NCBI GenBank assembly: GCA_027063785.1
Contig: JAMORC010000021.1
Coordinates: 1 to 38,404 of the forward strand
Reading direction: 5' to 3'
DNA: 38,404 nt
Source: Desulfurobacteriaceae bacterium
GTDB lineage: Bacteria > Aquificota > Aquificia > Desulfurobacteriales > Desulfurobacteriaceae
In this document: positions 13,762-18,049 of the stretch, in pieces
Position numbering within the stretch: position 1 is the stretch's first letter
How the letters are laid out: each line of letters opens with the position of its first letter
The notes under the pieces: model-generated
The model's input: only the letters and a program-made list of their open reading frames with translations
The model's database searches: none
Told to the model about the DNA's origin: nothing
Program-made: the position numbers and the translations under genes

Positions 13762-14976
13762 TCAGAGTTTCCTTTCGTCGTACTCAATCTTAACATTCGG
13801 TTTAGGAGCCGGTAGCGTTTCCGCAGGCTTTGAAATTTCGAATTTCCCTTCCTTTATCCAGGACTTGAGGATTTCTGCTATTTCTCTTGCCTTGTAGTAT
13901 GAAGAAACTGGGGAGGTCGGGACTTTCTTTCCTTCTATTTCTATAAATCCTTTCCTGAGATCCCCGTAGCTTACGAATGTTATCGGTTTAGCGTTTCCGG
14001 AAGGATAATCGACGGAGTAGTCGATAACGGGTGCGAGTATCTCGTCGTCCCTTACGGAGGTGTAAAAGGCTATCCTCTCGTTGAGTATGGGTATTGGAAT
14101 TCCTATACCTACAAACATGGAGACGCCGTAACCCAGGATAGATGCCGCCTTTATGAAATCCGTGGACATCTGTTTCATGTCCCCGACTACCATCAGCGTT
14201 CCGGAACCCTCTACCGGCTGTCCCTTCTTTGTTCTCCTTATCCCGAAGGGGGAGTGTTGAGTTCCGTGAAATGCAACGTATCCTATGCCTCCTCCTAAGA
14301 ATATCCTCGTGCCTATACCTATTGTTTCAAAGTACGGGTCGTTCATTAGGGGGGAAAGCTGTCCAGCTCCCGAGTACGTAGCGTTTCCGAAGTTAGGTTT
14401 AAGCGTTCCCATGTAGGTGTATATCGTTCTTGATGACTTGTTAACGGCCACGTTGTAGTTCTGGTAGGCGTTCCTTGGAGAGCAGAGGATAGCATCGTTT
14501 ATCGTCTTTATGTTTATGAGCTTCTTCACCTCCCTCCTCGGGTAACAGTCCGTTCCGTAACCGTAAGCCTCAAGCTCTATGTCTTCTCCGGCTATCAGCT
14601 CCTCTATTACGTGGGCGCCTCCGTACTCAAACTTTCCCGGGTAGACTTCATTTCTCGGGTCGTTCTCCGGCAGGGCGGTTGCTCCTATGTAGAGGTCAAC
14701 TGCGGCAATTCCGCCGTAGGCCGGGACTCCGTTGAGGTATATCTCTTCCATTTTCATTCTCGGCTTGGTGTGTCCGACGTTGAGGAAAGCTCCGGAAGAA
14801 CACATGGCTCCGAAAGTTCCAGTGGTCACCACATCGACCTTTTCCGCGGCTTTCACGACCCCAAGCTCTTCAACTATTTCTATCATTTCCTCGGCCGTTA
14901 CAACAACGGCTTCCCCTTTCCTTATCTTCTCGTTTATCTCTTCGTAGGTTTTGTTAACTTTGAACTTCCCTTCCAT
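13762..14976 (-). CDS. L-aspartate semialdehyde sulfurtransferase (HcyBio/DUF39)
   Basis: 404 residues of the HcyBio family (formerly DUF39), which makes homocysteine from aspartate semialdehyde and reduced sulfur in methanogens and anaerobic bacteria. Family marks are TTGTFGAMCSSGAFLNVGH (C59), GTDCYPRREVKK (C144, probably the persulfide-forming cysteine) and AILCSPRNAYQNYNVAVN (C165). Neither a CBS domain nor the NIL-ferredoxin partner gene found beside it in methanogens is present here. It abuts rimO (gap 0), so it is co-expressed with sulfur and SAM enzymes. Confidence 0.85.
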   Translation of the reverse strand: MEGKFKVNKTYEEINEKIRKGEAVVVTAEEMIEIVEELGVVKAAEKVDVVTTGTFGAMCSSGAFLNVGHTKPRMKMEEIYLNGVPAYGGIAAVDLYIGATALPENDPRNEVYPGKFEYGGAHVIEELIAGEDIELEAYGYGTDCYPRREVKKLINIKTINDAILCSPRNAYQNYNVAVNKSSRTIYTYMGTLKPNFGNATYSGAGQLSPLMNDPYFETIGIGTRIFLGGGIGYVAFHGTQHSPFGIRRTKKGQPVEGSGTLMVVGDMKQMSTDFIKAASILGYGVSMFVGIGIPIPILNERIAFYTSVRDDEILAPVIDYSVDYPSGNAKPITFVSYGDLRKGFIEIEGKKVPTSPVSSYYKAREIAEILKSWIKEGKFEISKPAETLPAPKPNVKIEYDERKL

Positions 14977-16296
14977 TTAACTTTCCCCTACCGGAATTTC
15001 GGCTTTTATTTCCTCTGCAATGAGGTCAACGTTGCTTGCCAAACCCGTTACCTTTGCCTTTACGATTTGACCGGGGCGAAAGTTCCCCTTTAGAAAAACT
15101 ATGCCGTCTATTTCGTAGGCGTTGCGGTAGCTCCTGGCTTCCGCAAATCCCGGCATCTCCTCGCTTGTTGAGTCGACTATGAGTTTCAGCTCCTTTCCGA
15201 TAAGCTCTCTGTGTTTCTTCTCGTAAATCGAATACTGGGTCTGTTCGAGCAAGTTAAGCCTTGATTCCTTAAGCTCTTCCGGAAGATCTCCCAGTGGATA
15301 TGCGGCAGTTCCTTCTTCCCTCGAGTACTTAAAAAATCCAGCCCAGTCAAGCTGATATTCTTTGATGAAGGAGTGAAGCTCTTCAAACTCTGCCTCACCT
15401 TCGGTTGGGAATCCTACTATGAACGTTGTTCTTATGGTGACGTTCGGGATTCTCTTTCTCAGCTTTTCAATAAGTTCTCTTGCGAACTTCCCCGAATACT
15501 TCCTGCCCATCGAGGCAAGAACTTTGTCGTTTATATGCTGAAGGGGAACGTCAAAATAATTCAGGATCTTTTCGGAGGAGGCAACGAGGTCGATAAGGTT
15601 ATCCGTTATGTGAGAGGGATATGTGTACATAAGCCTTATCCATTCTATGTCCTTAATTTTTTCCAGTTCTAAAAGGAGCTTGAAAAGTCCTTCCCTTTCT
15701 CCTTTGTCGTAAAGGTAGGCCGTCGTATCCTGGGCAATAACGTAGAGTTCTTTAACTCCCTTTTCAGCAAGGAGCTTCGCTTCTTCAACAACCTCTTCCA
15801 ACGGACGGCTCTTAAGAGGTCCCCTGATTATCGGTATGGCGCAGTATGCACAGCCGTTTGAGCATCCCTCACTGATTTTAAGGTAGGCAAGGTGCGGCGG
15901 AGTCAGTATTTCCCTCAAAAGATAGGGCTTCGTTGCGGCAAATTTCCTGTTTATGGCCTTCTCTACGACTGCCTCAATTTCATCTACTCCGATGAAGGCA
16001 TCGACTTCCGGAAGTTCCTTCTTCAGTTCCGCCTTATACCTCTGATACAGGCAACCCGCAACTATAACTTTCCTGTGGCCGGAGGCCTTCGCTTCTATAG
16101 CGTTTAGGATTTCATCAATCGATTCCTCTTTTGCTGGTCTGATGAAACCGCAGGTGTTTACGATTATCACGTCAGCTTCGTTCAAGTTCCTCACCAGCTC
16201 AACGTCTCCCGCTGCTTTCAAGAACCCTACCATGTATTCCGTATCTACCCAGTTTTTGGGGCATCCGAGGCTTATGACCGCTACCTTTTTCTTCAA
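14977..16296 (-). CDS. rimO: ribosomal protein S12 methylthiotransferase RimO
   Basis: Radical-SAM methylthiotransferase that modifies the conserved aspartate of ribosomal protein S12. The 439 residues hold the N-terminal MTTase domain with its three cluster cysteines (SLGCPKN, NTCGFI, VAGCLYQR), the radical-SAM CxxxCxxC in EGCSNGCAYC, and a C-terminal TRAM domain (about 375-435). SLGCPKNWVD and NTCGFI separate it from MiaB, which is also present at 34077-35399. ATG start, eight bases after selD. Confidence 0.95.
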   Translation of the reverse strand: MKKKVAVISLGCPKNWVDTEYMVGFLKAAGDVELVRNLNEADVIIVNTCGFIRPAKEESIDEILNAIEAKASGHRKVIVAGCLYQRYKAELKKELPEVDAFIGVDEIEAVVEKAINRKFAATKPYLLREILTPPHLAYLKISEGCSNGCAYCAIPIIRGPLKSRPLEEVVEEAKLLAEKGVKELYVIAQDTTAYLYDKGEREGLFKLLLELEKIKDIEWIRLMYTYPSHITDNLIDLVASSEKILNYFDVPLQHINDKVLASMGRKYSGKFARELIEKLRKRIPNVTIRTTFIVGFPTEGEAEFEELHSFIKEYQLDWAGFFKYSREEGTAAYPLGDLPEELKESRLNLLEQTQYSIYEKKHRELIGKELKLIVDSTSEEMPGFAEARSYRNAYEIDGIVFLKGNFRPGQIVKAKVTGLASNVDLIAEEIKAEIPVGES

Positions 16297-16304
16297 TTCT
16301 TACC

Positions 16305-17339
16305 TCAGAACACTTTTATTCCCGATTCTTCTGTAACTCTACCAACTACGGAAAACTGCCTGCAGTTCCTGTTTTTAAGCTCGCTTAAAAGGCTGTCCAG
16401 CCTGCTTTCCGGCACCGACATGAGGAGTCCTCCGGATGTTTGGGGGTCAAATAGAAGCATCTTCCTGTCCTCGTTTACTCCTTCAAAGGAGACGGCTTTT
16501 CCGACGTAGTCAATGTTCTCATACGTGGCTGCCGGAAGCAGTCCCATTGAGGCAAACTCCTCTGCTCCGGAGATGAAGAGAAATTTATCCGAATAAATCT
16601 CGGCTCCTACACCGCTGAACCTGACCATTTCGTATAAGTGTCCGAGGAAGCCGAATCCTGTAACGTCCGTGCAGGCATTTACTCCGACGGAGATCATCGC
16701 TTCAGACGCATTTTTGTTTAGCTCTTTCATTACTTCCGTTACTTCTTCTACCTGTTCCGGAGTGGCCATGTCTGCCTTTATTGCAGTTGTCAGGACGCCT
16801 ATGCCTAGAGGTTTTGTGTAAACGAGAACATCTCCCGGCTTTGCCGTGGAGTTCCTGATAATCCTTTCGGGATGAGTTACTCCTGTAACTGCAAGGCCGT
16901 ACTTTGTCTCAAGGTCTTCAACCGTGTGGCCTCCCACGAGCGTTACGGTTGCTTCCTTTAGCTTCTCTGCACCGCCTTCAATAATCCTTTTCAGGTAGTC
17001 AAAAGGAACTTTGCACGTGTCAAACATGACGAGGTTTATGGCCGTTATGGGTTTAGCTCCCATTGCGTAAATATCGGAAAGTGCGTTGGCAACAGCAATT
17101 TGACCGTAGTCAAATGGGTCATCGACGACGGGGGTTATAAAGTCTGCGGTTTGGACGAGAGCCAGCTCCTCTGAAATCTTGTAAACTCCGGCATCCTCGG
17201 AAGTTTCAATTCCTACAAGGAGGTTCTCGTCCTTGAAAAACGCTATCCCCTTTAGAGCCTTTTCAAGCCCGACCGGGCTTAACTTTGCTCCTCAGCCGGA
17301 AGCTCTTACCGTTTGTGTAAGCTTAAATTTCCTTTCCAT
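16305..17339 (-). CDS. selD: selenide, water dikinase, a selenocysteine-containing SelD
   Basis: Makes selenophosphate from selenide and ATP for selenocysteine and selenouridine synthesis. The full frame is 344 residues: ATG at 17339 (two bases after queC, with GGAG upstream), then MERKFKLTQTVRASG, in-frame TGA (17294-17292) as residue 16, GAKL and on without a break to 16305. Position 16 followed by GxK is exactly the catalytic Cys/Sec site of SelD (Cys17 and Lys20 in E. coli). A SECIS-like hairpin follows the TGA. Downstream DDPFDYGQIAVANALSD, GGHT and FGFLGHLYE are typical of SelD. Read as stop, the TGA would leave a pseudogene or a false start at 17063. Confidence 0.93.
17255..17294 (-). 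promoter_or_regulatory. UGA selenocysteine codon and bacterial SECIS-like hairpin
   Basis: On the minus strand the TGA (17294-17292) is followed nine bases later by an 8-bp stem, TTAAGCCC / GGGCTTGA (one G-U pair), closed by a GGUC loop at 17274-17271. A lower GAGC/GCTC pairing (17290-17287 with 17258-17255) can close a symmetric 6x6 internal loop below it. The UGA-to-loop distance of 17 bases and the GGU-type loop match bacterial SECIS elements read by SelB, such as that of fdhF. Confidence 0.82.
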
Positions 17340-17341
17340 TT

Positions 17342-18049
17342 TCACTCCGTGATCTTCCCTTCCTTCTTGAGCCGTTCTATTAGGTGATCCTCTGCCCCGG
17401 CTTCTGCCCAGCCCTTTGCCCTGAGAAGGCAACTGTCGCACTCCATACAGGGAACTTCGCTTCCTCTGTAGCAGGAAACGGAGTAGGAGTAGTCGGCGCC
17501 CAGTGATAGTCCCAGCTTGATTATTTCTCCTTTCGTAAGGTTGATGAGGGGAGCGTGGATTTTCCACTTTTTCCCTTCGGCTCCTATCTTGGTGCCCCTG
17601 TTGAGGGCTTCTTCCATTGCTGATAGGAATTCTGACCTGCAGTCGGGATAGCCGCTGTAATCCACGACGTTCCAGCCCCCGACAAGCTCGGTCGTACCCT
17701 TTGCTTCTGCGTAGGCTGCGGCTATTGATATGAAAATTCCGTTCCTGAAGGGAACGTAGGTTGAGGGGATTCCCCTGCTTAGCACCTCTTCGACCGATTT
17801 TGTCCTTGGAACTTCCATTTTTAGATCTGTAAGTGCGGAAGCTCCGATTTTCGACAGGTCGACTTCAAATATCATGTGTTCATCGACTCCGGCATTCTTT
17901 GCCGTAATCTTTGCCATTTCGACTTCAATCGAGTGGCGCTGTCCGTACGCAAATGTAATTGCGTAGACCTTTTCAAACTCTTTTCTTGCCCAGTAAAGGG
18001 CTGTTGTGGAGTCAAGGCCGCCGGAGAATATGACGACTGCCGATTTCAC
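17342..18049 (-). CDS. queC: 7-cyano-7-deazaguanine synthase QueC
   Basis: Converts 7-carboxy-7-deazaguanine to preQ0 with ATP and ammonia, for queuosine in tRNA. The 235 residues have the PP-loop [22 protein letters not shown], and the C-terminal zinc site [16 protein letters not shown] (four cysteines). GTG start at 18049 with AGGAG eight bases upstream. It is the first gene of the long leftward operon. No other queuosine gene is in the window. Confidence 0.95.

Follow-up and report, generated by a model that had tools for sequence, protein, structure and literature searches.

A selD gene with a predicted selenocysteine codon and a conserved SECIS-like hairpin in Desulfurobacteriaceae

Introduction

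Does the selenium-activating enzyme of a hot-vent bacterium itself contain selenocysteine (Sec)? The question is raised by a single TGA inside the selD gene (selenide, water dikinase; selenophosphate synthetase) of the window, a stretch of 38,404 nucleotides from a Desulfurobacteriaceae bacterium. SelD as a selenoprotein is textbook knowledge, and the catalytic roles of its Cys or Sec and of its Lys are well established. No bacterial selenoproteins are more widespread than FdhA and the Sec form of SelD (PMC1794560), and the SelD of Aquifex aeolicus was predicted to be one in 2005 (PMC1242214 Table 1). An earlier note, made from the letters of the window, proposed that the TGA specifies the catalytic residue. 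Here, we examined this proposal by translation, profile and structure-based alignment, RNA folding and comparison with related genomes.

Results

The selD frame holds one TGA at the catalytic position

Translation of the minus strand from 17339 to 16305 (stop codon included) gave a 344-residue frame that is interrupted just once, by a TGA at codon 16 (17294-17292), exactly as the earlier note had described; the terminal codon is also TGA. The residues around codon 16 read VRASG-U-GAKLSPVG. The read-through protein matched the selD equivalog model TIGR00476 with 378 bits (cut-off 125, residues 6-312), and the alignment runs across the TGA. U16 aligns with the catalytic Cys17 of E. coli SelD (PDB 3u0o, the best solved relative, E = 3e-73), which places the TGA where the note had put it, and also with the Cys of the same motif in 2yye. 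Within SG-U16-GAK19, aligned with C17 and K20 of 3u0o, the Lys three residues on is kept. With its full-length model match and its Cys/Sec-then-Lys motif, the gene is predicted to encode a SelD enzyme.

Two mechanical open reading frames accompany the gene. A truncated one (17063-16305) covers 252 aa, and a shadow frame of 91 aa (17567-17292) stops at the selD TGA and carries the first 15 codons of selD at its C-terminus. The expectation that automatic callers would truncate or fuse selD is borne out to the extent that both frames exist; the mis-annotation is seen as mechanical ORFs alone. A GGAG at 17345-17348 on the minus strand, 5 nt 5' of the ATG, is the likely ribosome-binding site as read from the sequence and lies within the end of queC (17342-18049, minus strand), which directly adjoins selD upstream, an order present in part of the Desulfurobacteriaceae. 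Directly downstream lies rimO (14977-16296, minus strand), which adjoins selD in most members of the family that were read. A 404-aa protein (13762-14976, minus strand), with rimO and a flavorubredoxin-like protein as neighbours, matches methanogenesis marker 16 weakly (TIGR03287, 130 bits, below the cut-off of 364).

The TGA is conserved in the family and beyond

The catalytic codon is TGA in every full-length selD gene of the Desulfurobacteriaceae (21 of 21), namely that of the genome holding the window and those of 20 relatives with 65-76% protein identity to the window SelD, which excludes a chance origin. Among the close relatives of the window selD, those with names come from metagenome-assembled genomes of Desulfurobacteriaceae and Desulfurobacterium. 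The TGA is likewise present in most selD genes of a second family in this class, whose SelD proteins are 37-44% identical to that of the window. A sequencing or assembly error, in which the codon is really TGT or TGC and SelD has Cys16, would give an enzyme of a kind known in many bacteria, including two genomes of the same class (G050 and G054). Against it, TGA occupies this codon in 21 separate Desulfurobacteriaceae genomes and in most genomes of the second family that encode SelD, and a conserved hairpin accompanies it. The earlier note had named such an error as what would overturn its reading; the conserved TGA rules it out in this role, and we regard the error as vanishingly improbable.

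Sequence searches also found a TGA at this position in twelve Chloroflexi-type selD genes and one Fimbriimonadaceae gene. The SelD proteins of Chloroflexi, SAR202 and Dehalococcoidia metagenome-assembled genomes with this TGA (L086-L093, L096-L099) are ~45-47% identical to the window SelD.

A SECIS-like hairpin follows the UGA

A SECIS-like hairpin, UUAAGCCC-GGUC-GGGCUUGA, occupies 17263-17282 on the minus strand, with 8 bp including one U-G pair. It begins 9 nt past the UGA, and the distance from the first UGA base to the start of its loop is 21 nt. Folding of the 42 nt from the UGA gives -20.3 kcal/mol, compared with -10.2 (sd 2.4) in shuffled sequences (z = -4.1), and none of 200 shuffles was as stable. 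The conserved part is a 5-bp core (17279-17266, minus strand; AGCCC/GGGCU around the GGUC loop). Since MAFFT did not bring hairpins from different genes into register, each pair was located by its distance from the TGA for the tally. The five core pairs are kept in 28 of the 28 TGA-bearing selD genes tallied, which comprise 21 from the Desulfurobacteriaceae and seven from the second family. Within the Desulfurobacteriaceae the core is paired in 21 of 21 genes, one of which has a two-sided change from C-G to T-A; most core pairs are invariant there, and covariation within the family therefore rests on one genome (L023). In the seven second-family genes all five of these positions are again paired, two of them by different bases, the replacements between the lineages being C-G to T-A and A-T to G-C.

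The codons that encode the core are constrained as well. Codons 21-24 have a mean codon identity of 0.90, compared with 0.45 over 132 invariant residues, and form the four-codon window of strongest synonymous constraint in selD. The outer extent of the predicted stem (lower helix, 17254-17291, minus strand) is poorly conserved; its pairs are not kept across relatives, and this lower part may be unimportant. An Rfam scan of the window found nothing at gathering thresholds, so the selD hairpin is not called by any curated family. By its fold, its conserved pairs and the synonymous constraint, the element directly downstream of the UGA is a predicted SECIS hairpin of the kind expected in a bacterial selenoprotein gene.

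The genome encodes the selenocysteine machinery

The genome that holds the window (1.57 Mb, 98.9% complete), examined through family searches and over selected stretches, encodes selA (C48, 639 bits), selB (C35, 431 bits), a tRNA-Sec with the anticodon UCA (C24:47646-47736, 83 bits) and mnmH (C63, 330 bits), which upholds the note's inference of SelA, SelB and tRNA-Sec. A UGA at the Cys/Sec position of homologues thus occurs together with selA, selB and tRNA-Sec, the combination that marks predicted bacterial selenoprotein genes. Frame conservation by itself would also be compatible with decoding of the UGA by near-cognate readthrough or as an amino acid other than Sec. Such decoding is very unlikely given a UGA exactly at the catalytic Cys/Sec position, a conserved hairpin at SECIS spacing and a full Sec machinery; the gene's own terminator, moreover, is still TGA.

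We conclude that residue 16 of SelD is almost certainly the catalytic Sec, inserted by the ordinary bacterial SelB- and SECIS-dependent route. By analogy with known bacterial Sec systems, SelB carrying Sec-tRNA-Sec, with its UCA anticodon, would bind the mRNA hairpin just past UGA 16 and deliver Sec; readthrough would then yield the 344-residue enzyme, and translation would otherwise stop after 15 residues. The enzyme, with Sec16 as its presumed catalytic residue, would convert selenide and ATP into selenophosphate, which would supply SelA for Sec synthesis, including the Sec of SelD itself and of a hydrogenase (see below), and MnmH for 2-selenouridine in tRNA. As SelD requires Sec, its own synthesis would depend on selenophosphate, a self-dependence known as a loop in organisms with Sec-SelD.

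The Sec-SelD of the window is real and well supported, and its arrangement is already known from related bacteria. With A. aeolicus SelD (PDB 2yye, 2zod, 2zau) it shares the enzyme family, the phylum and the SG-U/C-xAK motif; in that comparison, the selD genes of the second family, at the 37-44% identity given above, differ by a hairpin with a 3-nt loop and by the stem pairs at two positions. With Sec-containing bacterial SelD in general it shares the Sec at the catalytic position, the SECIS-like hairpin within the coding sequence and the sel genes in the genome; nothing essential differs, and the Desulfurobacteriaceae form a lineage-wide set of members. E. coli SelD (3u0o) has the family and the catalytic motif in common with it and has Cys17 in place of Sec. 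The result settles how selD should be annotated throughout a whole family of vent bacteria and indicates that selenium use in this lineage goes through Sec.

A group 3b hydrogenase is a further candidate selenoprotein

The earlier note had also expected other selenoproteins, and at least one more selenoprotein gene was found in the genome. In a group 3b sulfhydrogenase-type operon (L134:8600-12638, equal to G000:C5, about 50.6-54.6 kb), hydA, which encodes the hydrogenase large subunit, continues across an in-frame TGA (RAYDP-U-IACAVHQFGG). The TGA lies at the nickel-ligand position, which is occupied by Sec in NiFeSe hydrogenases, and ordinary ORF finding ends hydA before its last nickel ligands. 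The TGA is present in this genome and in nine relatives read, and is replaced by Cys in two genomes of one genus (G006, G012). A hairpin, CCACC-AGUUU-GGUGG, lies 3' of the TGA, its codons forming the five-codon window under the strongest constraint in the gene. Similar hairpins follow the UGA in hydA of this genome and its relatives and in the Sec-type fdh of relatives; their loops start at about 21-23 and read, for example, GGTCT or AGTTT. As a second UGA gene of the same genome with a hairpin at nearly equal spacing, hydA supports Sec insertion in selD.

The best matches of HydA and its operon partners are the alpha, beta, gamma and delta subunits of sulfhydrogenase (group 3b), below the equivalog cut-offs. 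An eLife study of T. ammonificans describes a group 3b HydA unique to the family, and the sole mention of selenocysteine found in it concerns the tRNA (PMC5441870). The literature searched held no report of Sec in a group 3b hydrogenase. That the Sec-SelD of Desulfurobacteriaceae feeds a little-noticed client, a Sec-containing NiFe hydrogenase of this sulfhydrogenase-type subgroup, is a proposal for which we see evenly balanced chances. If true, Sec in this genome would serve H2 metabolism and not formate dehydrogenase, as far as the examined genes show, and such a hydrogenase would be a more interesting by-product of the analysis than the Sec-SelD.

The earlier note had suggested formate dehydrogenase as a place to look for Sec. 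The formate dehydrogenase-like gene examined (C63:110148) has Cys instead (NCARICHAP) and was rejected as a second selenoprotein gene; Sec-type formate dehydrogenase does occur in some relatives. The genome gave no match to the HesB-like family, and its FlpD is free of an in-frame stop. A hairpin filter over ~98 kb of selected stretches and the window yielded, besides selD and hydA, only candidates with flanking peptides that, judged by eye, did not resemble Sec motifs.

Relatives show apparent loss and decay of Sec decoding

Two genomes from within the class, G050 and G054, serve as natural controls: they have TGT at the selD codon and no hairpin. Searches of these two genomes gave no selA match and no selB above the cut-off, and their tRNA-like match is marginal (47 bits, compared with 69-84 for clear tRNA-Sec); mnmH is kept in both. 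This state fits a loss of Sec decoding with a change from Sec to Cys, as has been described for both SelD and FdhA (PMC1794560).

The one-contig relative G029 (L030, L127, L128, L129) retains a UGA selD and an intact tRNA-Sec. Its selB has lost about residues 82-464, selA is missing, a formate dehydrogenase remnant adjoins the tRNA-Sec, and mnmH is a fragment. The selenium trait has apparently been caught in decay there, with a selD that seems no longer decodable. The selD of the window could in principle be decaying or undecoded in the same way, and G029 is a relative in that state. The genome of the window, however, has intact selA, selB and tRNA-Sec together with a second conserved selenoprotein gene, making a decayed selD highly improbable. 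Insertion of Sec at UGA 16 remains our reading of the window gene, and the genomes form a compact natural comparison of Sec-SelD with its full machinery, Cys-SelD without machinery (G050, G054) and a UGA selD that has outlasted the loss of selA and selB (G029).

Genus g7 (G006, G012, G016, G019) has selA, selB, tRNA-Sec and a UGA selD, and no formate dehydrogenase match was found in it. Both g7 genomes in which hydA was read (G006, G012) are those with Cys at the hydA position. SelD might be the sole selenoprotein of this genus.
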